From assembly GCA_025266875.1 (NCBI GenBank), contig JALLLT010000028.1, positions 62,001 through 126,000 on the forward strand: 64,000 nucleotides of DNA, read 5' to 3'. Shown in pieces: positions 20,121-62,040 of this stretch. Source of the DNA: Fennellomyces sp. T-0311 (taxonomy: Eukaryota; Mucoromycota; Mucoromycetes; Mucorales; Lichtheimiaceae). A program made the position numbers and the translations under genes. The notes beneath the pieces are model-generated. The model saw only the letters and a program-made list of their open reading frames with translations, did not search any database and was not told the DNA's origin. Within the stretch, counting starts at the first letter, position 1, and every line of letters starts with the position of its first letter.

Positions 20121-22281
20121 TCAGCAACCGCACTGCTCCTTCTTTTTCGACGCCGGAATGTCGATTCCCGGGTTGCCCAGGAAAAAGTTGCATGGCTTGA
20201 GCATGAACCCGCACGTCTCCACTAACACAACGCATCATCAGTTTGTTTCTGCAGGCAACCCCATCATTCGACGTGTGCAGTTTACCTGGCATGACTGGGA
20301 AGTCCTCCACCCGCGGAATATGCGTCAATCCAAACGTGAGCCACAGCACGATATCCTCGTTGCGAACGTTCTTTTTCGACTTGGTCCATTCCGGCAACCC
20401 GAGTCCCGGTTTGGACTGACTGCAATAGAAGCCTCCGGGGTAGAGTTGGTTGGATTCGTAGGGTGTCACCCACACTGTCTTGGTCGCAAACTGAGCGCGT
20501 TGGGCCACAATGGACCCTGGTTTGGGCAGCATGGGTGGCGTATGCTGACACATGAGTTTGTATCCCACCGGCTGCTTGGTGTATGGATGCAGTTTGGATT
20601 CATTGATCACTTGCCAGAATCGCCCCGTTTCCGCATTCGCGCGCACTTTGGCTTCTTCCGTGTTGTTGTATATTTGCATCACAGGCATGAACGCGTTGCC
20701 CACAACGTTGTCGGGATGCCCAACGTCTTCCGGCGACGCCACAACGTCGACTTGCATCACCGAGTTGTGTGGTCCATCGATCATTGGATCGATTCGCATC
20801 ATGAATAAGTGTTGGTGGTGCTGTCCAACGACTTGCGGCGCGACAATGCTGCCATACGGTGCTGGATCCTATTTCTTTACAGTTTAGTGTGTGTGTTTCT
20901 TTATATCGACATCTCTCATCAAGTAAGCCATACTTCATCCTCTGCCAAGACATGCGTGTTGAGTTCTCCCGTGGCCTTGACTTCGTACTGGACCGAACCA
21001 TCTTGGTAAAAGTAAAAGTACAATCCATAGTCATAGTTTGCAGCTTGCGCACTAAAAATTAGCATACAGATGATGTGGATTGTTGATGTGCTTTACCGGT
21101 AATGATGTTCGAGACGACTAAACGTCTAGATCGGACGGAATGGGCCTTGCCTGTGCGATAATCCGTATGTTTAAACAACAATCCTGCATCCTCTTCATGA
21201 ATACAGATTGCGTTCTTAATGACGAACGGTTCTCCTTCTAAATCGTTAATAACGCCGTCCAGATAGGTGATATCTCCCACACAATCACATCCAAGTTCGA
21301 GCGAATTGCTCATGTTGCCCAGACCATATTCACCGACATCGAAGGCCATCTTGTGATAATACGGTTTGTAAGGATTGGCATACGGCACCACCATTTCGGC
21401 CAACGACATGCGATAAAAGATCGGTCGTTCCTCTTGCTCCGTATACGTCACATTGCTAATCACCACGCCTTCGCGAAAGTTGAATCCAATGTGCATCCTC
21501 CATTTCTGCCATGCCAGGGTATTTCCATTCAACGTGAAGCTCACGCCCTCGGGCTGGGTGATTTCAATTGGCTTGATATCCTTTCGATGGCGCTTGAGAT
21601 GTTCAGGCAAAAAGTGATGGTTGGTCAGGGGAACCGTGGGCCGTTCGAATTTGCTGTTGCGAGGTGTGTGATGGATGATCTCAATCACTTTCTGCGCGTT
21701 GACATCTGCAAATGTATTTGGTAAACAAACATGCAAACAAAACTTGATGCTTTGACTATACCGTAGATGGGCGTAAAGTCCAATGGATGGGCGTACTGGT
21801 TATCGTCTGTGGATGTTCGCATGTACATGAGTGCCTGCATGATGCGACGTTTTTCTTGTTTGCCATCTGGATAAAATCCAACTGCCCATGGATCAATGTA
21901 GACCGTGGACATATCCGTGATACCCAACGCAAGACATTCTTGGATGATCCGTTCATCCTTGATCATGACTTGCTCCGCCTCGATCATTTCGTCGGGATGC
22001 TGCGTCGGTTGCACGCCTTGCAATTTGTCCCATCGAGTAATCTTTTCATCGTTGAGCGAGACAACAATCTCATGGACCAGCCCACTGGGCCGATCAATCA
22101 GGATCACCAGCGCTTTGCGTTCAATTTCAATACCGGACAACACTTGCTCCTTGCTTGGTTCGTCCAACGATACTGAACTGAAAATGTACCTGTCTCCAGC
22201 ACGTGATTGACGAACCACCTTCGATGCCGTTCGTACTTCGTCTACACTCAGTGGATCCAACGGATGCTTTGCAATCGTCAT
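20121..22281 (-). CDS. copper amine oxidase, paralog 1 (640 aa)
   Basis: Five exons on the minus strand (22281-21762, 21705-21097, 21043-20934, 20868-20286, 20221-20121) give 640 residues. The enzyme oxidises primary amines to aldehydes with release of ammonia and hydrogen peroxide, using copper and a topaquinone made from its own tyrosine. The sequence shows HPLDPLSVDEV at the start, the catalytic-base region MAFDVGEYGLG, the topaquinone site AANYDYG at the start of exon 3, copper ligands in GQHHQHLF, and the third histidine in GLTHIPRVEDFP. The end is short and cysteine-containing with no clear SKL/AKL peroxisomal tripeptide. It shares two intron positions with paralog 2 and has two extra introns. 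It converges on the importin gene, with 201 bp between stop codons. The ATG at 22281 is preferred because it aligns with the start of paralog 2. Confidence 0.95.
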
Positions 22282-22339: not shown

Positions 22340-25156
22340 TCTTGCATATCGTGTACATCATATGACGCACTTGGTCTTCGATAATGCCCTGTGTTACTCT
22401 ACACCATGGAAGTATAATGAGATACGCGGTGCCTTTCCTTGCTTGCTGCATGATGACCGGGATTTTTATAACCTATGCATTTTTTGTGTGTGTTAGAAAT
22501 TTGCGGCTCGTTTGGCGTATAAACGTTTGGATGTTTATGCATGATGCCGCTTTTGCACTTGTTTTTTCTCATGACTTTTTGTTTGGGGAAATGTTGTTGT
22601 GCTATTACCTTTTGAGTATCTTGACCGATGCCCGGATAAGATGTAGTTGATCTCTTGTTACCGTTTCATGCAAGATGCAAATTATAAAGGAGTCTATGAC
22701 AAAACAACAACATGATCTTTACGGCGAACCCGCTCTTTGACTGAGAATGTGTCGCTCAAAGTTTTTCTTCAGTGTGATCGTTTTAAATAGAGCCTTTATG
22801 ATCCCGGTGTATGACCCTAATGTTTTTACCTATAAGTGTGGGCATTGGTGTGTCGGTAGGTACTCTCACAAAAACCGTCGGCCCTTGGTCGAGAATGAAC
22901 AGAAAAGAAAAGAAAAACAGAGACTTGATGATGACGTATTCGGTTGTCCTGAATCTACATTCGATGCAAATCTTGTCTCTTCATGTAGGGCGTATTAATA
23001 ACCAGCTCCCTTATATTGCATATATTCCATTTATTTAGTATTTTCAAGTGCCAAAACCGGAGGGCATGACGGGTACATAAACTTAATCAGTCCATACAAA
23101 GCTAATTATCATTTTCCTATGGTTGTGTATGCTCCAAAAGTTCATTATTATCTAACAGTCCCAGCTGTTCAAACTGTATCCTTAATATAGCCTCTAGCAT
23201 CGGCAGATACAGGTTGACTTGTGCGAGCAACCTACTATTGCATAGTTCGGACATATTGCGAATGAACAAGCCGCCATCCAATATCGTCTTGAGCGGGTGT
23301 TGGCCCACACATGGTGCCAGATCGAACAGAATATGTTTTCCAGGCATTTTAAGGAATGTTTGTATGCTTCTAAAGAATATTTGCATCCGGTTCCACAGTT
23401 TGGTCCGCATGATGTTCACGAATCAGCAATTCTGGTTTGACAAAATTGACCAACTTTATAATCAACCAATGACCTGTTTCCCAAGGACAGGATATTGCAC
23501 TTCTTCAAGCAGGTGATCCTCAGACGCCGTCATAGTAGATACGAAGCATAAAACGTGGCCAGCACTTTTGCATATCCTTTGAAAAATCGATAAGCCGAGT
23601 CATAGAGATGAACAGTACCATAACGACGCACCGGCCCCAGGAGAAGCCCTACAAGACCGAGCATCCACGTCCATAGGTAACCACACTTAGTGTGATGCCT
23701 CATTACGCAAGCACTTTTTTTTGGATTTATGCCTTCTCAACCTCTTTTTCATCCCTTTATCTTATATCCATCTTGTACTTATTCAAGCCTTTTTTCCCCT
23801 AGGGCTCTTTTAGACATGGCATCAGCTCTCTTCACTATATATCTTACACATCTGTATAGCAAGAAAGGGACCATCGCATACCTGTAGGACCAGGGTAATT
23901 AGTCTTCCAAATAAAAAAAAAAGCTATACTTTTCTCAACTAGATACGAAGCACATTTTTTTTCATTTGGTGTACTTCTTTTAAAGCATGTTCAACGCGTT
24001 TTGCTAGCTATCAGTACCGCTGATTACTTCATTGATTTCTTGGCTATGGAAACGGCCAATCCCGGCCTCGGTTAGATGCCTTTCATCAATGCCTTGCTGA
24101 GACGTTGCGACTCCAGTGGCAATTGCCATTGAAACACCACTAGAAACTAATCAGATACACGTGCTATGTCGTTAATTTGCTACGATGACCTTTAATACTT
24201 TTGCTTTCTAGGTTTTCCTCGGTCTCAGTTTTGGGTCCACATGATTGATTAAAGTCTTCTATGTGCAACTTCTTTTTAGATTTTAGCTGACAATTCAATT
24301 CACAGAATATGCTTGGTCACGGGTCATTTATCTGTTTCTCTGTGACCATGCCGGACAGTGCACGTCTATTCAGTCCAATGCATCTTCCCGAACATTCGTC
24401 GTGTTGCTATTAGGATATATGATATGCGCATGATTTCGTGCCCAAAAGTAAAGGGCAAAGGGATTCTTGTAATAAGCAGTGTGGTCGATAACAGCAGGTT
24501 TGGCAACTCATTTGTTTCGAAAAAGCTCATCGTTCCTGTGGTTTTGTGCACAATGTACGAACCGATGCAGGTTCTGGTACACGTCTTATCAAAATATGAC
24601 GCAAAAGGAACCAATAAAAGCTGCTTGTTTGGCAATAAACGGTAACAAATGCTTATCAATTACTCGTTATGCTTGTGTTTGTCTCAGAGTTATTAATCGA
24701 AAGCATTTTCAGTCACTCTGGTGAGTTACATCAATAAAACAGGCACCCCATTGTACGTTTGCGAGAAATGACGGATTACAGCGGCGATCTTTATGTAAGC
24801 TAATGAAAAGAAAACTAGCCTTACGAAATCTTTGAGGGAAATATAGCGGGCATTATTAAGCAAGACTGAGACTCAATGAGAACGAGGTCAAGTTACTTTT
24901 AGCTGATATTGGTTCTTGTTTTTGTCCTACATGTTTGTAACACAACAAGCGCCCTGTCACTCCGAACGTAGAATGTTGTACCAAGATACCGACTGGCTGG
25001 ATTACACATGTGACAGCCATTCGTCAAAAATATATGCTTTTGTTTATAAAATAACACTGTTTCATAAACCAGTCATAAGGTAGGTATATTATGCTTGGTA
25101 TTCCAAAGAAAACAACAAGATAAAAGAGAGGTTTGGTGGAGTGACAACATGGATGA
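22340..25156. other. intergenic region, no supported gene
   Basis: No gene I can support lies here. Open stretches at 22384-22650, 23117-23419 and 24358-24659 show no recognisable domains and overlap on both strands. A short match (GAACCGATGCAG, 24560-24571) recurs near 40175. Homopolymer runs are frequent near 23710-23950. Confidence 0.4.
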
Positions 25157-26838: not shown

Positions 26839-28261
26839 CCCCGGATGTTTCAAGTAAGCCAATTTCATAATCGCCATGAAAAATAATACCATCTGCCTTA
26901 TACTCTGTGTCCAAGTCATTGAATGCAGAAAGTAGGATTTCGCCTGGCAAGAAAAGTGTTTTCGGTTTTGCTTCATCGACAGCAGCTTCAATCAAGGGCC
27001 AGACCAGCCAGTGATTGTATGCGATTTCTGATTTGGATATGCGTTCACCGTTGTTCACAAACACCCTCTTCGCACTATCCGAGGATGATATGATGAGTAT
27101 CGCGACTATGCAAATGTGTTAAATACATTATATACGTACAACTGTTTGAACACTGTTGCGACCATGGCAGTGGATTCGGTTGCTCTGAAGGACGTAATAT
27201 GACGTGTTTTCTCAAGAAAAGCTTCGATAGATATCTGCATGATTGAGTTTTGCCAGCATTTAATTTGATTGCAATATCCTGAGTACATTAAACACCAAGA
27301 CATTTACCTGCTTTGCTGCAAAGCACGCTTTGATATAATCTCTGTTTTCCTTGTTGACGTTTGTCTTGTGTTTTAGAAGGCCAAGTCGATTATACAGATC
27401 TTCATCGATGTTCGGACGACACTTGATCTTGTACCCGCACTCGATAACATGGTACCGTTGGAGACTATGCACACGTGTTAAAAAGTCATCAAACATCTTA
27501 TAGTCATATCCACTTACTCAAAGTTATGAAGCACTTGATTGCTCTCAATTAACATCATCCAGTCGCACCAGAACTCCGTTTCTGTATGCAGATCCCAAGT
27601 GTCACCAACTAACTCTTGCTTTGGCGTTGAACTTAAGGGTGCCGGAGGGGTGGTAACGATCTCTTCCGTAACGTTCGCAGCAGGTTTTTCATCGTTACTC
27701 ATACGTCGTCTAAAAATCAAAAGTTAGCACATAAATGTACGCAACTAGCAACTTCAAGCTGAACTTACGCTTTTCGTACCACTTCGTCCTCTTCGTTCTC
27801 CCCAATGCGCTTCATTGATCTCAACGAGGTTTTTGTCAAGCCTGCAGCGGTATCCTTACGGGCCTCCTCGACGCTCTTATTCCTCCAGTAATCGAGCTCA
27901 TGACTTGAGCCCTTCCATGTCTTAAAGTCATTCATTAACTGCGCGCCTTTCTCCACCATGACTGCGGACTGCAGTATGTTTATGTATCGACTGTTCGCTG
28001 TTGTTTTGTCCATATACCCGAAGTGATCAGCAAATACTTTGAGCGATAACTTGGCACGTTTTTCGAAACACCACTGAATTTCCTGCATTGCAGTCAAGTG
28101 AAAAAGTATTAAGGTTAATGGGATTGAAGCCGCAGGCCCTATAGCCATATCCGTAGTGAGAAAAAGAGAACTCCGATCCGAAAATGTAAAAAAAAAAACA
28201 GAAAATAGGAAAAATAGATGTAAGATATAGAATTTAAGGTTTAGGGTTACCTTTGGACTTT

Positions 28262-30540
28262 TCATTGTTCACCAATGATGTGCGAGCGAACATACTATAG
28301 CGTACAGCAGGTGTTAGCACCCAGACCTTTGATATGTAAATACAGTTGAATCTTACATTCTGTGGCTGCACAAATGTCGAAAAGTTATCCAGAACTTCTT
28401 GTTCTGTGTTCTTGGTATCACCGCTACGGAACGGAGGAAGAGGGCGGCCATCCATTGCTAGTACAGATGGCACGCCGATTGTTGCGATATTGACTGCTCC
28501 AACCGAGTCACGGTTCATGGTTGCAAGTTGGCGCCCTGGACATTGGGGATTGTCGCAGTGTCTGGCACCGTTTGAAGTGTTTGCTGTAGTTAGGTGTGTG
28601 TGTGGACGAAGTAATTCGTGAGACTCTTTAGAGGAGAGAATTATTCCGGAAAAGACAGAGAGAATTCTTAAGCTACCGCATGTTACACCAGATACAACTC
28701 ATTTGTCTCCCGATACTACTGGATACGACACCGTTTGACCGCTTGAACTTGCCTCCTCGACTATATACTTGGAGCAAGGACTCTTGCCAGCAGTACGGAC
28801 AAAGCTTGCTGGAACAGTACTCGTTGACGACCTGGACAACGTCTTGTTGATAGCTTTCAAGTTCATGCCAAAGTTTCCTCGCGCTTCCCCGGTCGCTCCC
28901 TGTGAATGGGCAATTAACTGGGCTCCAGTGGCCAACAAAGTGAGCGCACGATAGTTTGTCTGGTGTAGAAGGAGGCTTAACTTTCTTCCTCACCCTTGCA
29001 GCGAGTCGTCCATAAAACCGCTTGGATCGAATTTCTTGAGTGCGCGCTCTCTTTTCCTTGGCCTTTGTCGTTTGCTTGGTGCGTCCTCTCTCACGGATGT
29101 TGCGATGGTGCCGACCCAGTGTCGCCGTCCGGACAAATCCAGTCGTCATCCGAGCACTGCGTGGTAGCTTGGAAACAGGACCAGTATCACCTTGTATTGT
29201 AAAATTTTGTAGCGATAGATACCGCCGAGCATCCTGGTAATAATCCTTGACGGTTTTACCAACGACAGTGGCTGTGACTTTTAGATCTGGGTCAAGACCG
29301 GAAACAAAGTTTCCCGACTGCTCAGAAAGGTTGAACTTGGTCGTCTTTTCCTCGATTGTCTGGAACAGCTGTGAGTAAATGGAAGTAGAATTCGTTGCAG
29401 TGCTGTTGCTACGTACCTGTGATGCAGGTATTTCTTCTCTTTTGAGGCCTTCGTTTACGCTATAAAGCTCGTCTTTCGCAGATGCCAGTTCTTTCCTTGC
29501 CTTGTTCTTCTTGCGCCAATGCTCATTTGCCGCGTTCCGTGCCTCTTCACGCTTCTCTTGGTCGTTGGCATTCTTGGTCTTTCGCCACGCTGAAGCGGCC
29601 TTTCTGCGTTCACCAACCGCTTGGTTGTAAAGCTTGGCATACTTTCGATTCTCCTTTTCAACCACCTTGATTGTTTCTGCAAGTCTATCTGCGTTTACTC
29701 AAGGCTGCTCTTGTCACCATCCTTCATCTTCGGTTTTAATTTCTTTGGCGCTGCATTCGTTTCAAAATGGATGCGGGGACCAACAAACCGCACCGTTCAT
29801 CTGTTCACAAATTTCATACTCCAGATGAAGTGCACCTTCATTTTGGATAATGAGTTGCATAACTTGAAGGTTTGGAAGATAGCATCGAATATATCTTTGG
29901 GTCGCGTTCGAGCCGCCACTTGTGAGGTAATCCACTTGTTTTCCGTGTCTTTGAAGATGAACTTTGATTTTAAGAGGTAATACAGTCCAGTTGCTGTGAG
30001 CGATAAAGCCGATTTGACCGAAACGTCTGGGGATGAAAGCCAGACTTCATCTGCTTGATCATAATACTCCAAAACGGCTTCTGTGAGTCTAGCCAGAGGA
30101 CCAGCGGCGAATACTTCGAATTCTTGGCGTGTTCCATCTGGACTGCGCTTTTGGACAAACGGCCGTAGGTTATTGACCAATTGAGCAGCATAGTTCTTTT
30201 CCTTTTCTGCAAGCGTAACACCTTTGAACGCTACCTTCTGGATGTCCGCTGGGGTAACTTCAAAATTGATATTGCCCGACTCACACAGCATTGGAACTAT
30301 TGCAAGAAGAGCACGCATGTTCTTTTTGCTGGAGTCTTGGTCTCGGGTTTCGTCTTCGGTTGTACTGGCGTTTTCATTCTCCTCTTCGTCCTCTTCATCT
30401 TCACCCTCCGCGTACTCGTCCACGAAATCCTCATCGTTACCGCGTTCAGGCGTACAGTCATCAGTGAACTCGTCCTGTTGCTCGTCTTTTTGCGCCTTTT
30501 TGAATTCGTCAGCTTTTTTCTGTGACTTTATAATTATCAT
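28262..30540 (-). CDS. Fanzor/TnpB-like RuvC nuclease, upstream exon with in-frame stop
   Basis: Minus-strand exons: 30540-29718, 29676-29417, 29368 to about 28727, about 28623-28357 and 28294-28262 (TGA). The family call rests on the ordered RuvC and zinc-binding motifs: GLDPDLKVTATVV (RuvC-I Asp, codon 29291-29293); a basic linker; FVGHWSPVNC; VVNEYCSSKLCPYC, with the Glu codon at 28820-28822 and the first cysteine pair; HCDNPQC, the second cysteine pair; and NRDSVGAVNIA (RuvC-III Asp, codon 28507-28509). This layout fits eukaryotic TnpB homologues (Fanzors), RNA-guided DNA nucleases, which are known to shift the RuvC-II glutamate. The upstream exon has an acidic stretch (about 30360-30440) and then reads ...SMKFVNR-stop-TVRFVGPRIHF, with the TGA at 29797-29799 and the same frame open afterwards. 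This looks like a nonsense change (CGA to TGA is one step). A Met at 29727 could start an unbroken core of about 403 residues, near the size of TnpB. The full N-terminus is uncertain. Confidence 0.75.
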
Positions 30541-31308
30541 CCAAAGAGATGGTTTGATGGAGTGTGCGACTTTGAGTTTCCTCAGCGTTCTCGGTAACTA
30601 TGGCTGGCATATTATCCGCCTCTAGGGCAGCTTTGCGCTTCGTTGACACAACCAGTTTAGGCTGATGAGCCTCGCTAATTCGGAGCGATCGCCATTCCCC
30701 TTCACCAAAGTATGAGTCGATCAACTGGAAATCGCAACAGTCAAGTGTGCGGGTGATGGAGGCACGATGCGTAGGGGATTCTTACGACTTGAAAACACCA
30801 CGACCTTGGCGCCCCATTTAGACGCGATAGGCAATATAGCAAGGAGTCCCTTGACGACGAAAGTTACGCCATCCTCAAGCTTGATTGTGACAGAGTGGTG
30901 TTTCTCGGAAAAACTGTTCAGTAGATTGCAGAGTACACTTTGTACATTGTTGTCACCGTCAGTCCTTTCGTCCACGGTCAGGCCTAGGGTCCGCAAACGA
31001 TCCAAAACGATCTTTGCGTTTTCTGCGGTGTCCAATGGCAGGTTCGCCGCTGATTTGAATGCTCGAACGATGATTGCTGACTCGCTTGTTTCAGGTACGA
31101 CATTCGGGCGGGAGGGGATGCTGGTAGCAAACTCTACACCATGGACATTGGCGTGATCTGCATGATTCTTAATTAAGACTAACTTTACTGTTTGATTTGA
31201 CTTTTGCTTACCCCTGGCTGGAAGATCTTGCAAATTAACGGTCGGATCGGCGACGGTTGAGGTGGGGCTGTCAAATCCCGGCAGCCGGCGGCATTGACCA
31301 CAGCGCAT
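30509..31308 (-). other. coding-like sequence upstream of the Fanzor-like gene
   Basis: Two open stretches, 31196-30750 and 30724-30530, look coding, for example KLEDGVTFVVKGLLAILP and IDSYFGEGEWRSLRIS. They could be 5' exons of the Fanzor-like gene or part of another element. Splice sites I tried between them (GTAAGA near 30784 to the CAG near 30725) do not preserve the frame, so I cannot join them with confidence. Confidence 0.35.
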
Positions 31309-34929: not shown

Positions 34930-35871
34930 ACTCTTTCTTTGCTAGAGGAATCATTAGAAATGTGTCTGCCAGTTAGCTTTATTACATCCGCCATTTTTTT
35001 ATATTACGGTGGTGCCAAGTTCGTTATTTGAATGTGCCAATATGAAAACCACCGTCTGCTAAATATGATTTTGTGTCTGCCAAACGAATTTTTGTGCCTG
35101 CCAACATTAAAAGTCACCTCTGCCAAGTTTATAATAGCCTTGTGCCAAATTCGAAATTCACACTCTGCCAATTGGAAGAAAAAATCCAATACCATTTCAC
35201 GAAAACTATTGCCTGTTATCTCATGTTAACCCAGGTTTTGTGTGTCGGATCCTCGGAAGTCTGAGTTGTTCTTGGAAAACCAAAAGAGGTACGAGAATCA
35301 TGCCATTCGACTGAAAGAATAATAATAAAAACAGAAAATAAAAACAGAATACTCTGCACCCAGAATGTAGACATTACTATGTCTTTCGTTCTATTTATTT
35401 GTGTTTTTTTTTCTTTGTAAGACTACCAAGCTAGATCGCATGGCAACTTCTGTGGCACGTTTTTCAAAAGATGAGCGGAGAAATGTTGCCTCAGGCGCCG
35501 AGGCTTTTGTAGCACATGAGGCAAAAAAAAAATCCAAGTTTTCGCGAACCATCCAAATACTGCAAAGTTTTTTCGCGAAAAAACCAACCAGATAGCCTTT
35601 TTGTATGGGTTCGGTTGCTTTTCGAACGTTATAAGTGGTTCCTTGCATGTCAAGGCATTGACAGGTTTAGGTTACTCATATTGTTACCCAGTCCGTGCGA
35701 CCAGTTTAGGTTATTAACCTGGTAACACAGTTTTGAGTGATGCCACTGTCAGAGAGCGAGATAAGTGTAGAAATACTTGGGGTGGGGGGGGGAGGAGAAC
35801 AGTGCGTTCTTTCATATCAATAACTTTTTTTTACTCTATACCCTGATCTGATTCCCCATCTCGATTGACCA
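34930..35871. other. intergenic region upstream of the zinc-finger gene
   Basis: No gene is seen. Between 35000 and 35180 a T(C/G)TGCCAA motif recurs about six times on the plus strand (for example 35034, 35074, 35097, 35117, 35141 and 35165), possibly a degenerate tandem repeat. A run of G's lies at 35780. Confidence 0.45.
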
Positions 35872-38813
35872 ATGTCAAAAACTAAATCGACGGCATTGGT
35901 TTCGATGCCCAATGATCCCAAGACGATCAAAAAGTTGAAAAAACCCAAAGTACTCGAGGAGCCCAAGGGATTGGATGAATGCATAAGGTGCGAAGAACCC
36001 AAAAAGAAGTCCAAGGAATCCAAAAAAGCCAAAAGGCCAAAGGAGTCTGATAGGATCGAAGCGCATGAGCAGCCCAAAAAGGTCAAGAAATCCAAAAGGG
36101 CCAAAGATCCCAAAGTGACCGAGCTGCCCAAGGAGGAAGAAGAGCCTGACAAACGCAAGACGGCTAAGAAGTCTGAAAAGATGAAAGAATCTGACGAATT
36201 CATGCAACACAAGAAATCTAAAAGGGTCAAGCACCCTAAAGAGGCCGAATCCGCCGAGATCAAAGATCCCAATCTACCCAAGAAGCACAAAAAGTCGAAA
36301 AAGATAAAAGAACATGAAGCGCCCGAGGAACCCAGGGAATCTAAAAAGTCATCGAAACTCACAGAGCCCAAAGAAGCCAAGGGGTCCAAGAAAAAGTCTA
36401 AAACGACCAAAGATTCTGCTGGAACCAAGGAGTCCAAGAAGTCTAAAACTGTCAAAAATCCCAAAGAAGCCGAATCGGCCAAGGTGGGTGACACCAAGGA
36501 GCGCAACAAGTCTAAAAAGTTGAAGAGTTCCGATCGTCCTGAACATTCCATAAAGGCGAAGGAACCCAAGGAACCCAAAGCAACCAAAGCATCCAAAAAG
36601 TCGAAAAAGGATAACGAATTCGACAAGCCTGATCAGCAGCAAGTAGTACACGTACTCAAAGATCCCAAGGAAAATGAAACGGTCGATTCGTATTCCAGCC
36701 AGAACACTGATACCGAGACAAACTATACCAGCATTGTCGAAACCGATTCGACAGAAATGACAGACCCCGATATGCATCATCTCGATGTGAAAAGTATTCC
36801 CGACGTGAAAGATACCACAACCAATGAAGTCTTGGAAGCTCAAGGGCTTCAAGGTATCCATTTGGAAATGAAACTGGAGAAATTGGTAAACGCCGTTCTG
36901 TATTCTACCCTAGCGCTTTTCTATATATTTAACCTATTATACCAAACAACTAGGCCGATGTATGTTAACACTATTCAGCGAAACTTGCATTGAACAAAAT
37001 GTTGTTAGCATAAATTGTACCTTTGCACAGAATGCAAGATATCGTTTCTTACCGTTACTCAAATGCGATCCCATGTTCTTCTCGAGCATTATGCTAAAGA
37101 GGTAAAATCGGACAGAGTAAGCGTACTTTGCAAGGTCTCATAATATGCTTTAGTATTCCTTCTCCTGTAACGAATGTCCCAAAAACTATCTCAACAGCAC
37201 AGATCTTTACAAGCATAAGCAGCTCAGGCACAACCCGGTAATACACTAGAAACGGTTTTTTTAGTTATCGGTGCGCTAATGTCTTTTTCTTTTCAGGAAT
37301 ATAAATACCGGTGTCCTCATGAAACTTGTCATCAGCGAATAGACAGGAAACAATATTTCAAGTTACACTTAAAGAGACACGAATCGCAGGAGGTTCGCAA
37401 ATATATAAACCTTTGAAAGCACAGTCTATTTAATCTATTCCTATTTAGATTCATACTGTTTTAGAGTGCCCGGTATGTACCTTAAACTTGGGTTCTCTCC
37501 GAATGATTAGGAAGCACGTGATAAGAGATCACCCTGATTTTGAGGTTAGTTGCAAAAGGTTGATATTGACGTATACTCAATTACTTTCTTAAGGGAGTAC
37601 CCTGTGAGGTGTGCAACGAACGATTCGCCCATGTAGTAGAACGTGATACGCATAGTATATTAAAGCATCCTATGGTAATGTAAATTGGTTAGCTTATAGT
37701 GTTATACGACAACTGATATTCCACGGCAGGAGAAAGAATTTGTATGCAAAGATGCCAATTGTGGAAAGCGGTACAAAACCATCGGCAATCTGATTGAGCA
37801 TTATCAATCCACAGGCCATGACCCAAAAGTTAGTCAAAATCTTGAATAATCGTTTCGTCTCATATTCTGAAGTATATATCTATATTCCAGGCAACAAAAC
37901 CATTCCCTTGCCCTGTATGTCCTTTAGGGTACGCACATCTGAAATCTCTCAAAAACCATATCTTAAACAATCATTACGGCGAAGTTGAGGCTGGTTCGAC
38001 TACCGATGGTCTTTCTTCTTTCATACTAACTATTTCAATTTAGCTTGTGCCCTGCAAATTATGCGTCAAATCATTTTCGTGTCAGGCCGAGTATGAAGAG
38101 CATGTCATCAAATATCACAACCCAGTAAGTGTTTCTTCAAATGCGCAAATCAGGCGCAAATTGATATATATATATATTACTATAGACTTTTCGGTTTACC
38201 TGTGACCATCCGGGGTGCGAGTTGCGATTTGAGACAGAAGCCAAGGCATCAAGACATGCTTGTTTTCATTCGACAGATCCAAAAGATATACCAAAGCAAA
38301 AACACAATGGAATGGTAAGGCATATTGGCGAGCTTTTTCTTTTACCATATACTAAAATTTACACATAGCCAAAACCCATATACTGTCCAGAATGTAGGAA
38401 CCCATACCAATTTTATAACCTGAAGAGACATATAAAAAAGAAGCATCCTGATGCTCCGGTTGGTACAAGCAGTAGTGATATTTAAGAAAAAGCACTAATC
38501 AATTTACTTTAATTCAGCAATACCCTTGTCCCAAATGCCCACAGATATGCCTATTTAAAAAAGAATGGGGAAGGCATATGCTGGTCCGCCATAATCCGGT
38601 AAACCCATGGTTTAGTTAGCTTGCACTCTTGACGGAATACTGACATGTTTGCCATTATCAATGATGTTGTAGGAAAATGTGTATGTCTGTGACTATCCTC
38701 TATGTAACAGGCACTATGATACTGAGCGCCATTTGTGGAATCATAAGACTACACAAAGACATCTACGGCCATTCCCCAAACCCGGAAACGAATACTTGTG
38801 TGTACTAAAATAA
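35872..38813 (+). CDS. C2H2 zinc-finger protein, one finger per exon (725 aa)
   Basis: Thirteen exons: 35872-36885, 37009-37101, 37154-37237, 37297-37392, 37449-37544, 37594-37674, 37730-37828, 37891-37983, 38044-38124, 38186-38314, 38369-38458, 38518-38598 and 38673-38813. Every exon is a multiple of three and every intron is in phase 0. Exon 1 encodes 338 residues, mostly Lys/Glu/Pro/Ser with recurring KKSK and EPKE units, then an acidic Thr/Asp stretch. Exons 2-13 each encode one C2H2-type finger, for example CTECKISFLTV...H...H and CPKCPQICLFKK...H...H; two use a C-x4-C spacing. Twelve fingers suggest a nuclear nucleic-acid-binding protein with a basic, nucleolar-type tail; target and role are unknown. 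No break is seen. Introns are mostly 49-74 nt, the first 123 nt. Confidence 0.9.
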
Positions 38814-47995: not shown

Positions 47996-50123
47996 ATGTC
48001 TGCTCCAATCCATCCTCTCGACAACCTTTCCGCCGACGAAATCCGCCGTGCCACGGCCATTATCCACAAGGAACGCGGCAATGTCATTTACATTATCAAC
48101 TCAATGACTCTCAAGGAACCTGCAAAGGATCTCATGATGGCCTATTTGGGTTGGAACACCTCCGTTCCCAAGCCTACTCACATTGAGCGTGAGGCTTTTG
48201 TTGTCCTTATTGACCGTCCTTCCGGCCTTGTCCACGAAATCGTCATCTCGCTTACCCAGAGCAAGATCACCAGCTGGAAGCAGCTCAAGGGTGTCCAGCC
48301 TACTCTTCACGTCGGTGAAATGCTCGAAGCCGAAGAACACTTGCTCAAGGATGAACGCGTCATTGCCGAGTGCGCCAAGCTTGGTATCACTGATATGAAG
48401 TCGGTCTTCATTGATCCTTGGGGCGTTGGTTACCACGAATCCATCAAGGGCAAGCGTTTGATGCAAGCTCTTGTCTACATGAGAACCTCTCCCGATGACA
48501 ACCAATATGCCCATCCTTTGGATTTCAACCCCCTCTATGGTAATGACAGTCTTTTTTTTGTTCTTCCATGAAAGCATATAATTAATTTTAATCTAGATGT
48601 CAACGAGAAGAAGGTTGTTGAAATCATTGTTGCCAAGCGTCGCAACAGCAAGTTCGAACGTCCCACCATCCCATTGGCCAATCATCACTTCCTGCCCGAA
48701 CATCTCGGTGAAGAAAACCTCCGCAAGGACCTCAAGCCTATTCAGATCATCCAGCCTGAGGGTGTCAGCTTCACTATCCGTGGCCAGCAATTGGACTGGC
48801 AAAAGTGGAACATGCACTTGTCGTTCAACTACCGTGAAGGTTTGGTAATCAACAACGTCAACTACAAGGATATGGATGGTACCATTCGCCCATTGTTCTA
48901 CCGTATCTCTTTGGCTGAGATGGTCGTCCCCTATGCCAACCCCCACAAGCCCTACAACCACAAGATGGCCTTTGACGTCGGTGAATACGGTTTGGGTAAC
49001 TTGACCAATTCTCTGGAATTGGGCTGCGACTGCGTTGGTTCCATCTACTACATGGATGCTGTCTTGGCTGATATGAAGGGTGAGCCATGGGTCATCCCCA
49101 AGGCTATCTGTATCCACGAAGAAGATACCGGTCTTTTGTTCAAGCACACCGATTACCGTACTGGCAAGGCTCACTCTGCTCGCTCGCGTCGCTTGGTCAT
49201 CTCGCACATTGTCACCGGTAAGTTGCAAATATTATTTTCTGAAATTATCATTAAACTAATCCACAAACTTCATAATAGCTGCCAACTATGACTATGGTCT
49301 CTACTACTACTTCTACCAGGATGGTACCTTCCAGTACGAAGTCAAGGCCACTGGTGAACTCAACACCTCCGTTCTCGCTGTTGATGAAGATGCTGCTCCT
49401 TATGGTACCATGGTTGCTCCCCAGATCGATGCCCAGCACCATCAGCACTTGTTCAGCATGCGTATTGATCCCATGATTGACGGTCAATTCAACTCTGTCG
49501 CCGAGACTGACGTCTTTGCTTCCGAATTCCCTGTCGGTCATCCCAACAACCGCATTGGTAACGCGTTCAGCCCCAAGACCAAGATCTTCAACAACACCGA
49601 AGAGGCCCAGTCCGAAGCTGATCTTGGCAAGCATCGTACCTGGAAGATCATCAACGAGAGCAAGATCCATCCCTATGCCAAGTCTCCCGTTGGTTTCAAG
49701 ATCACGAGTCCCAGCACTCCTCCACTTTTGGCCAAGCCTGGTTCCATTGCCTATGAACGTGCCAAGTTTGCCAGCAAGACTGTCTGGGTTACTCCTTATG
49801 ATCCCGATCAGCTCTTCCCCGGTGGTTACTACTGCTACCAGAGTGAGCCTAGCGATAACTTGGGCTTGCCTCAATGGACCAAGCAAGTCAAGGACGTTCG
49901 CAACAAGGATATCGTCGTCTGGTTTACCTTTGGTATCACTCATATTCCACGTGTTGAGGACTTCCCCATCATGCCTGTGGAAATGTGTGGTCTGACCATG
50001 AAGCCTGCCAACTTCTTCTTGGGTAACCCCGGTATTGACATCCCCGCTTCGAGCAAGCATTCGACCAAGAGCGCTTATGCTCCTGCTGATGCCAAGTCAT
50101 GCTGCGGCAAGACCAACTTATAA
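47996..50123 (+). CDS. copper amine oxidase, paralog 2 (669 aa)
   Basis: Three exons (47996-48539, 48597-49217, 49279-50123) give 669 residues. The enzyme deaminates primary amines with copper and topaquinone. Asp308 in AFDVGEYGLG is the expected catalytic base. Tyr392 in ANYDYG is the expected topaquinone precursor. His443 and His445 in QHHQHLF and His610 in GITHIPRVEDFP are the expected copper ligands. Both introns are at the same codon positions as two of the four introns of paralog 1. Codon use is strongly biased to C-ending codons, suggesting high expression. The C-terminus is AKSCCGKTNL, without a canonical peroxisomal signal. The ATG at 47996 matches the start of paralog 1. Confidence 0.96.
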
Positions 50124-59902: not shown

Positions 59903-62040
59903 AATGATGAATCGGACTCTAGCACGTCGCGGAGGGTCACTTGGCATCAAGCTAGAATATTAAATTGCGTAACACCCGTTGCTCGCCTTTCTGATTTGGT
60001 GGTGGACAACCGGACTCTCCTCCTGAATTTGAACTCGATTACGGCGACGACTATCGTAGTAGTGGAAATACCATCGAGACTGGAACCACTACGGTTGTTG
60101 ATCCCATGGATACTGACAGTCGTAGCAGAATTGACGATGATGATGATGATGATGATGATGATGCTGATGCTGCATCTGTTGACAGTCATAACGAGCCTGT
60201 TGAAAGTCGGGCATTACCTATTGACAATCCGAGGGGAGTTGATGACGACGGCGACGACGATAATGGTATTGAGAACGCTGTAGGCGATGACAACAGGGAA
60301 TACGAAAGAGATGAAGAAAATCCTCTCCATTATACCTTTAAAGAGTACCCATATATTGGTCAGGATGCTCGCACCCGCAAAAGCTGCGAGTTGTATTGTC
60401 TCGTTCAGAAACAGAATATTGCGCGAGCCACGTACCATCGATTGAATAGAATGTCCAATGGCTGGATGGAAGACGATGAACCGAGTATGTGCTCACCGTA
60501 ACCCACTTAATGGTTGAAAAGTACTTACATAAAAGGGCGATGTACGTAGATGCAAATCGTGAACCACTATTCAGCCCTTTCGTCACGGAGAAGCAGATGA
60601 TAGCCAAGTACGGGGTTCAGCCAAAACTTTACCGTATTTGCCCAGAAGGATGTCGTCTCTTCCCAATTGGTTGCTTGGGTGATTGTACATGCAATACACC
60701 TCAGTTTAAACCAGGCACGGATAATGAGCCAGTCCGAACAATGTCGTACTTCCCATTAGCTAAGCAGCTGAGTGGGCTTGTGGCAGATAGCAAATTCAGG
60801 GAGTCGGTATACGGACAGTTCAGTGGGCAACAAACATCAGCAGACTTACCTGCGAGCGCCGTCTCCGTTGCCAGTCCCGATGCCGCTCGCGATACCATAC
60901 AGGATATTACGGATGGTAGCGTGTTCAAAGAGCTTCGCCCAACTTACTTTGCAGAAGCTACTGATCTTTGCTTGGGCCTCTTCATGGATGAGTTCACGCC
61001 ATTCAAAGGAAAGCAAATTCGATTAACTATTGTAAACATATTAGTTTGAGTCCTCCTCCGAAGGAAAGGTACGGCTTACATTTTCTGGAATAGTTGCTCT
61101 TACTCATATCCACGCTATTAGATACAAAATCAAGAACATGATCCAAGTCGCAATTCTATCCAGAGCTCATGCGAAGGATATATACAGCTACCTGAGCCTT
61201 CTATTTGAGGAGCTTCATGTTATGCAAACGTCTGGCGCCATTACCAAGGTGTACGGTCTTCAAGAAGACTCAAATGGAATACTTCGGCGTGTGCGACAGA
61301 AGAAGTTCCATTTTAAGGCACATTTACTGCTGGCATCCGGTGATATTGTTGGCGCCCAAGAGCTCATCCACCATAAAGGGTACAATTCCGACTACGGTTG
61401 CCGTATGTGTTTGATTCGAACCAATTCACCGATGAGCCCGAGAGGCGGTCGCAATGGTCATTACTACAAAGGCAGTGTAACTATGTCACCTAGCCGACCA
61501 CTTGAGCAGTTCCAGCAAGTGGACATTGTAAGTGACTTGCTAACAACGACATATCACCGCCCCATCATTGTACTTACGCTGAATCATTACAGGCTACGGG
61601 TATTAAAGAGGCAACAGAGTTTGCTAATTTGTTATCCTTCCATGGCTATCCTTTCTTTGGTCTCGATGAGCTCCACATGATTGGTATGAACTGCTCACAG
61701 AGGGTGTGGTGAATTATATCTGGAGCGTTTGACATCGACACGAATACTTTGCTGCTACCACCCAGACGACGCAAGGCTATGGGCGAAGCCATAACAGCTT
61801 CTGGTTCAACTATTCGATCTGCCATCTTCGAGGGTGACTTTAGAGGTGCGCATACGGATATCAGTTTACGTGTACGTCAGAGCTCACATTTAATATCAAC
61901 CTCAGACGTAGATCGAGCGCCGAAGATGATGCGGTCTGTCGATTGGATCGTATTCTCCTGTGTGTCGTACCTACTTTGGTACTTGAACAGTTAGTCGACG
62001 AGTATGGAGCAGCGGCTCCACAAATATGGTGCATGTATTT
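59903..62040 (+). pseudogene. decayed Tnp2-type (CACTA/Plavaka-like) transposase
   Basis: The N-terminus is acidic (a GAT microsatellite at 60127-60160 encodes poly-Asp). Then come CRLFPIGCLGDC, KQLSGLVADSKFRESVYG, FAEATDLCLGLFMDEFTPFKGK, IKNMIQVAILSRAHAKDI, KKFHFKAHLLLASGDIVGA, HKGYNSDYGCRMC, HYYKG and GLDELHMIG. This order matches the transposase family tnp2 domain, including the LGL..D.F.PF and GDI...KGYN..YGCR.C motifs. Lesions: an 8-bp excess near 61036-61043 shifts the frame after IVN; a TGA at about 61710 interrupts the next block; another shift near 61950 precedes PTLVLEQLVDEYGAAAPQIW. The C-terminal half is not seen. Proper TIRs were not found. Confidence 0.75.

Follow-up and report, generated by a model that had tools for sequence, protein, structure and literature searches.

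We identified, on the minus strand of a 64,000-nucleotide stretch of the Fennellomyces sp. T-0311 genome (contig JALLLT010000028.1, positions 62,001 to 126,000; here, the window), a locus that we read, at a probability of roughly 0.9, as a Fanzor1 pseudogene, a dead copy of the transposable-element gene for a eukaryotic RNA-guided endonuclease. Signature residues of the family can still be read from it, but a solo long terminal repeat (LTR) splits its zinc-ribbon codons, its frame is broken further upstream, and a large internal part is missing. A first-pass annotation made from the letters of the sequence had described a Fanzor/TnpB-like gene in a fungal genome and had allowed that its RuvC core may be active; the family and the fungal host are supported by what follows, and the active core is not. 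The reference for comparison is a sister family of elements in the same genome, in which the gene of copy L073 has 1357 codons.

The four motifs quoted in that annotation, GLDPDLK, NEYCSSKLCPYC, DNPQC, and NRDSVGAVN, were all found on the minus strand in Fanzor order, the first two within a 341-amino-acid (aa) stop-to-stop frame (28673-29698) and the last two within a 154-aa frame (28234-28698), and are thus split over two frames. In NEYCSSKLCPYC, a displaced glutamate stands six residues before a CxxC pair, and the segment FVGHWSPVNC, some 40 to 46 residues ahead of that pair, contains no glutamate; the annotation was therefore right that the canonical RuvC-II glutamate is missing, that another lies beside the zinc ribbon, and that all three acidic residues (Asp, Glu, and Asp) are encoded. 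With the solo LTR disregarded, the window sequence fits, by eye, the Fanzor/TnpB signature D-X(125,275)-[TS][TS]-X-X-C4 zinc finger-X(5,50)-RD, as it is given by Bao and Jurka (2013; PMC3627910), with 159 residues from D to SS and nine, counted by eye, from the last cysteine to RD.

The interruption between the two frames is a dispersed repeat. The genome searched comprised 45.6 Mb in 182 contigs, and copy counts from it are lower bounds; the 158-bp repeat matched 40 places in it, itself counted. Among 20 copies that were cut out and inspected, a perfect 5-bp duplication was seen in 7, the window's included, and four of the five bases matched in 4; 9 of the 20 adjoin sequence common to the inside of a full-length element (L087), whose LTRs we take them to be and which encodes a reverse transcriptase (RVT_1), RNase H, an integrase (rve), and a chromodomain (Chromo). 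Because of its TG...CA ends, its 5-bp duplication, and this parent element, the insert is assigned as the solo LTR of a chromovirus. Its insertion was not recent, given an identity of 77 to 94% to other copies over the aligned parts and a shortened length (158 bp versus 173 to 179 bp in the other 19 inspected copies). When the LTR and one copy of the duplication are removed, the frame continues ...KRSNGARHCDNPQC, like the sister's ...KAANGAIRCTNPDC, and the nearest relic (L002) reads ...KYIKVNGARCCANPHC in one open frame over the insertion site and has no such insert. An ordinary intron between the two frames, which the spliced protein of the first-pass annotation implies, was considered and rejected in view of the dispersed repeat, the LTR ends, the duplication, and the uninterrupted relic; an ordinary spliced protein is likewise not supported, since the gap between the frames has 39 further matches in the genome.

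Upstream of the LTR, the blocks that align to the sister fall in changing frames (Table 1). The bounds first proposed, 28262..30540, enclose the motifs and are too narrow, since homology to the sister extends over about 31026 to 28429 and is weak in the N-terminal block, for which the tblastn E-value was 0.30 window-wide and 0.015 on the local segment; by eye, a frame at 30509-30781 (DSYFGEGEW...QPKLVV) resembles the sister's DSYLGEKTKW...PPKLVK. The 266-aa frame of the middle block matches 26 places in the genome, itself counted, and past that block every frame followed up to 29695 meets further stops. The C-terminal block aligned at an E-value of 3e-8 to the sister and at 1.9e-10 to a hypothetical protein of Circinella umbellata (P0001). 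Between the blocks that end and begin at sister residues 118 and 615, 232 bp replace 497 sister codons, and about 450 residues have therefore been lost from the window copy. Judged by continuous coding capacity, the gene is not intact, given the solo LTR within the zinc ribbon, the in-frame TGA, the further stops with frame changes, and the internal loss, and an active core is not borne out for the same reasons, to which a RuvC-I motif of DPD, in place of the DPG of its relatives, is added. A probable 48-nt intron lies close to the position of the sister gene's fourth intron, which fits descent from what may have been a spliced ancestor.

Table 1. Features of the Fanzor1 relic and of the LTR inserted in it (window positions)
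Feature	Position	Strand	Basis
Remains of N-terminal block, sister residues 42-118 of 1357	30760..31026	-	Weak tblastn match, colinear
Middle block, sister residues 615-870, with TGA near its end	29779..30528	-	tblastn, E 1.9e-14
In-frame TGA of middle block	29797..29799	-	Sister alignment reads through; sister exon continuous there
TAA in middle-block frame, beside change into 341-aa frame	29695..29697	-	Alignment; other stops if the change is earlier
Lysine-rich/coiled segment, RuvC-I, RuvC-II region, and first half of zinc ribbon, sister residues 961-1291	28724..29776	-	tblastn, E 3.8e-24; 341-aa frame open from 29698
Probable 48-nt intron, GTACGT...CACAG, open in frame	29369..29416	-	Inferred from sequence
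RuvC-I Asp codon (GLDPDLK)	29291..29293	-	Sequence
Displaced RuvC-II Glu codon (NEYCSSKLCPYC)	28820..28822	-	Sequence; aligned family residue falls on SpuFz1 E541
Target-site duplication AACGG, first copy	28731..28735	-	Locus L039
Solo LTR, Ty3/Gypsy chromovirus, 158 bp, TG...CA	28573..28730	-	Repeat matches, ends, 5-bp duplication
Target-site duplication AACGG, second copy	28568..28572	-	Locus L039
Second half of zinc ribbon, RuvC-III, and C-terminal ...PPF, sister residues 1287-1335	28429..28575	-	tblastn
RuvC-III Asp codon (NRDSVGAVN)	28507..28509	-	Sequence; aligned family residue falls on SpuFz1 D606

These lesions bear on the best placed of the alternatives, a functional spliced Fanzor gene with an ordinary intron between the two frames and an active RuvC core. 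In its favor, none of the three acidic residues is missing; by eye, most of the insert lies between a donor-like GT and an acceptor CTACAG, the use of which would join the frames; and the probable small intron suggests a spliced ancestor, so that some of the stops could fall within additional introns. We nevertheless consider such a gene very improbable, because the insert has LTR ends, a target duplication, and copies dispersed over the genome, the upstream lesions would need introns within what is a continuous exon in the sister, and some 450 residues are missing. Slightly less probable still is that the solo LTR has itself become an intron and that a C-terminal fragment with RuvC and zinc ribbon is expressed as a domesticated, noncutting protein. 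Such a fragment would draw on the open 341-aa frame, on an LTR that appears removable in frame, and on the existence in this genome of short Fanzor-derived frames with only the N terminus and the zinc ribbon, but its splice donor is, by eye, poor beside the donors of the sister gene, and the nearest relatives of the window locus have decayed too, one with five internal stops (C123) and another in fragments (L006).

Relatives of the locus are numerous in the genome. The 341-aa frame matched 38 other places at an E-value of ≤1e-3 (best, 3e-55), 4 of which (C141, C107, C24:22326, and C119) touch only the LTR-encoded tail, leaving 34 that match its Fanzor-derived part. The nearest, a relic at C123:142813-143313, is 52% identical, and the next, also a relic (C115:366401-366655), is 49% identical over 85 residues; the near-identical sister copies are about 31 to 37% identical to the window frame (E 8e-22). 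When one sister locus (L003) was used as the query, at least 99 pieces matched, and 11 places were 92 to 100% identical over most of a 270-aa exon. Thirty of these loci were cut out; the 14 that matched best (L009-L022) without exception contain NEYRSSK.CP.C and NRD, and 23 of the 30 have the Glu-zinc motif by a motif scan. In L073, DPG...NEY...NRD lies within one exon, where the signature of Bao and Jurka is uninterrupted. A second Fanzor family (L036-L038, at G000:C108, C137, and C123) is 46 to 47% identical to the L003 exon and keeps the motif SEDYSSKTCPVC, GRD, and DPG, with its RuvC domain spread over two exons versus one in the sister family.

The sister element is a 4.78-kb unit with sharp ends that is found at different sites: four copies (L070-L073) align to a fifth (L069) over 4.72 to 4.78 kb at 95 to 98% identity and have different flanks (n = 5 copies at length). 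Its gene fills most of the element and, in L073, has five exons and four introns of 55 to 62 nt, the introns being inferred from frame and splice signals. The gene is open throughout in two of the five copies (L073 and L069); L072 has one internal stop, and L070 and L071 are frameshifted. The codons that differ between L073 and L069, 41 of them synonymously and 47 nonsynonymously (nonsynonymous divergence [dN], 0.015; synonymous divergence [dS], 0.048; ratio, about 0.31), suggest, for the one pair compared, that the family may have spread recently under some constraint. Two Circinella proteins are colinear with the sister protein, P0001 of C. umbellata (1415 aa, 44% identity) and P0002 of C. 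minor (975 aa, 40% identity), the latter ending ahead of the zinc ribbon. P0001 has DKY where NEY is expected and no displaced glutamate, with DPG, the zinc ribbon, and NRD kept, and it may lack cutting activity. Homologue searches returned Circinella proteins only (in one such search, the best 7992 candidates were scored).

It is through these relatives that the locus is tied to Fanzor. The Pfam model of the TnpB/Cas12f zinc ribbon, PF07282, matched 17 places in the genome at an E-value of ≤1e-3, 5 of them above the model's cutoff; the L073 locus scored 26.7 bits in that search, above the cutoff, and P0001 gave an E-value of 0.0021. Among solved structures, SpuFz1 of Spizellomyces punctatus (PDB 8gkh) was the top match of the family profiles A1 and A4, at E-values of 0.012 and 0.014, and with the single 270-aa exon as the query it came second by E-value (0.39), after an unrelated protein. 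In the family alignment, chain residues 935 and 1000 of 8gkh are matched by the NEY glutamate and the NRD aspartate, respectively; an offset of 394, which fits both residues, would make them E541 and D606, and the residue-level match spans E541, the four zinc cysteines, and D606. The metal-coordinating residues of SpuFz1 are stated to be D383, N385, E541, and D606 (PMC10432273). Among the features of Fanzor, Yoon et al. (2023; PMC10711439) list a RuvC-I motif that is almost exclusively DPG and a RuvC-II glutamate that lies six residues before the CxxC rather than about 50 upstream, and DPG is present in the sister L073, in the second family, and in three Circinella proteins. For Fanzor1, Bao and Jurka give a highly conserved glycine and glutamate (G500 and E536 in their numbering; PMC3627910), to which, judging from their order rather than from the published alignment, the glycine of FVGHW and the glutamate of NEY probably correspond; no column but that of this glycine is invariant in alignment A4, some rows of which are fragments. 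Thus, the relatives carry the DPG...NEY..CxxC...NRD signature and have SpuFz1 as their top match among solved structures, and the proposed family assignment is supported by way of them.

Several results weigh against reading the locus as a dead Fanzor1. The window copy owes its family assignment to a chain that leads from it to the sister genes and from these to SpuFz1: the window frame alone gave an E-value of 0.5 with PF07282 (not significant), no match among solved structures in the PDB at an E-value of ≤10 for the 341-aa frame, and nothing meaningful in NCBIfam, and even the L073 exon alone scored 24.0 bits with PF07282 (E 4.5e-5), below the cutoff of 26.3. The family call is limited mainly by these weak E-values, but it agrees with position, order, and spacing and with the conserved glycine. 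The RuvC-I motif of the window is DPD, not the near-exclusive DPG, although in SpuFz1 D383 is followed two residues later by N385, and the third position is therefore not absolute. AlphaFold2 models, the check that had been named in advance, were too poor to define a fold for either the window frame aligned to two Circinella sequences (A2; mean predicted local distance difference test [pLDDT] score, 44.9) or P0002 with P0001 (A3; mean pLDDT, 33.8), and they neither support nor refute a RuvC fold. The element's ends are not recognizable around the relic: there was no left-end match with up to three mismatches, and the right-end motif had seven matches versus 3.9 expected, none of them at the relic's 3' end. 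Finally, some of the stops and frame changes, the TGA among them, might be explained by introns that escaped detection, and our confidence in a dead gene is reduced for that reason; the sister has no intron at the place of the TGA and the TAA.

A chance likeness to Fanzor in an unrelated zinc-ribbon protein, which the lack of a significant Pfam, NCBIfam, or PDB match to the window frame alone might favor, is hardly credible beside the homology to the nearest relic and to the sister family, the loci that carry the full signature, and the agreement with SpuFz1 at E541, the four zinc cysteines, and D606. A strict pattern (DP.., 110 to 175 residues, and.E[FY]..[ST]..C..C, in frames of at least 130 aa) was found in 1 of 71 window frames, whereas none of the 263 frames in 40 surrogates from a first-order Markov model had it, and a looser pattern was found in 1 of 71 and 1 of 263, respectively; this control is weak, with far fewer long frames per surrogate window (263 in 40), and a chance origin of the motifs is better excluded by homology.

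We suggest that the dead Fanzor1 copy arose from a multiexon gene for a large protein, in which a lysine-rich/coiled segment followed a long N-terminal part and preceded a split RuvC domain with a C4 zinc ribbon and the Fanzor-type displaced glutamate. If it worked like characterized Fanzor1s, this protein would have bound an RNA from the right end of its element and cut guide-matched DNA. On this reading, the window copy lost much of its N-terminal part, gained stops and frame changes, and was hit by a chromovirus inside the zinc-ribbon codons, where recombination between the LTRs of that element probably left the 158-bp solo LTR. Intact sister genes persist elsewhere in the genome.

The ends of the sister element were examined in 17 copies, 14 of which had a readable left end (in 3, none was found). 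The left end is CTTTTT in 14 of 14, and the right end, which reads ...GAACGTCTGATTTTT, closes with T5 in 15 of 17; a T5 tract thus stands at both ends, and no clear terminal inverted repeat was seen by eye. In the second family, the right end reads ...GAACGCCTGTATTTTT in L037 and L038 and slightly differently in L036. Beyond T5, the match between left and right junctions was clearly longer in three copies (C98, C79, and C139) and two bases longer in C102, with at most one extra base in the other 10 readable copies; a fixed target duplication that would point to a transposase class is therefore not recognized. Two copies among the 14 (C124 and C114) have the same left flank; targeted insertion was considered for them and is ruled out, as they are 99% identical over 998 bp and represent a duplication. 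At these loci (L075 and L081), the left junction of the sister element lies beside a right end of the second family, in the same way on both contigs. When five right-end tails were folded as RNA, no z-score was significant (range, -0.13 to -0.8), and scans of the window for tRNAs and, at gathering scores, for Rfam families gave no matches. A T-rich target motif and a guide RNA from the right end would be guesses from these sequences.

Miniature elements were also encountered. One of them (L088; G000:C94:688297-688794) encodes a 166-aa frame in which Fanzor residues 11 to 76, approximately, are fused to the zinc ribbon and RuvC-III, without RuvC-I and without the glutamate. A search with this frame returned at least 105 matching pieces, the larger Fanzor families among them, and all 166 residues were present without a stop in five places (C94 itself, C117 twice, C13, and C104:283523). 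The right end of L088 is common to the second-family copies L037 and L038.

SpuFz1, which is 638 aa long, resembles the family described here in having a glutamate six residues before the CxxC, the motifs CxxC...CTNPxC and NRD in the same order, and many copies per genome; it differs from the window copy, which is broken. Its locus is described as about 2.1 kb long with a single open reading frame (PMC10432273), in contrast to the four predicted introns and 1357 aa of the sister gene. The Fanzor1s of Mucorales (PpFz1 of Parasitella and the Rhizopus, Phycomyces, and Mucor families of Bao and Jurka, 2013), which appear to belong to the same fungal order, judging from Circinella as the nearest relative, are likewise transposon genes with a conserved glycine and glutamate ahead of the zinc ribbon; the left end, the T5 tracts, and the lack of a clear inverted repeat set the sister element apart from them. 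Ghost Spu-1 of S. punctatus, like L088, is a short Fanzor-derived element whose right end is similar to that of Fanzor-bearing elements; in the account of it in PMC10432273, it has no Fanzor reading frame, whereas the miniature element here keeps one of 166 aa with the N terminus and the zinc ribbon.

Some Fanzor1s are stated to reach up to about 800 residues (PMC10711439), and the sister protein (1357 residues) and P0001 (1415 residues) are well above that figure. Tentatively, at somewhat less than even odds in our estimation, the window locus may be the relic of an undescribed giant Fanzor1 lineage of about 1,360 to 1,415 residues, some 1,080 of them before RuvC, that is mucoralean, mobile now or recently, and accompanied by short nonautonomous elements; these keep the 166-residue frame with N terminus and zinc ribbon, whose product, having no nuclease, might attach to the same RNA or DNA ends and control the full-length enzyme or make use of it.

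The relic and its LTR sit among ordinary genes, for an importin-beta, two copper amine oxidases, and a RhoGAP, and the term "repeat island" in the first-pass annotation is thus only partly apt. A second, heavily decayed piece on the minus strand of the window (23965-24507) resembles the N-terminal part of the sister at residues 186-237 (E 9e-5) and, without significance (E 1.5), at residues 97-123. Pieces of copper amine oxidase genes lie at 21062-21799 (minus strand) and 49260-50120 (plus strand), about 27 kb apart on opposite strands. On the plus strand, two adjacent open frames of 189 and 211 aa at 60480-61677, perhaps one gene, and a 374-aa low-complexity frame rich in lysine, glutamate, and proline at 35869-36990 had no Pfam match at an E-value of ≤0.01.

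In summary, a decayed Fanzor1 gene is a known kind of locus and, as such, an ordinary one; the window copy illustrates the decay of a Fanzor gene and the way in which a solo LTR may be mistaken for an intron if the sequence is judged by eye. The giant sister family and its 166-residue miniature derivatives are the parts worth following: a Fanzor1 of more than 1,350 residues that is colinear with a Circinella protein would widen the published size range that we found, and a genome with intact, decayed, and miniature copies lends itself to the question of how Fanzor serves its transposon.
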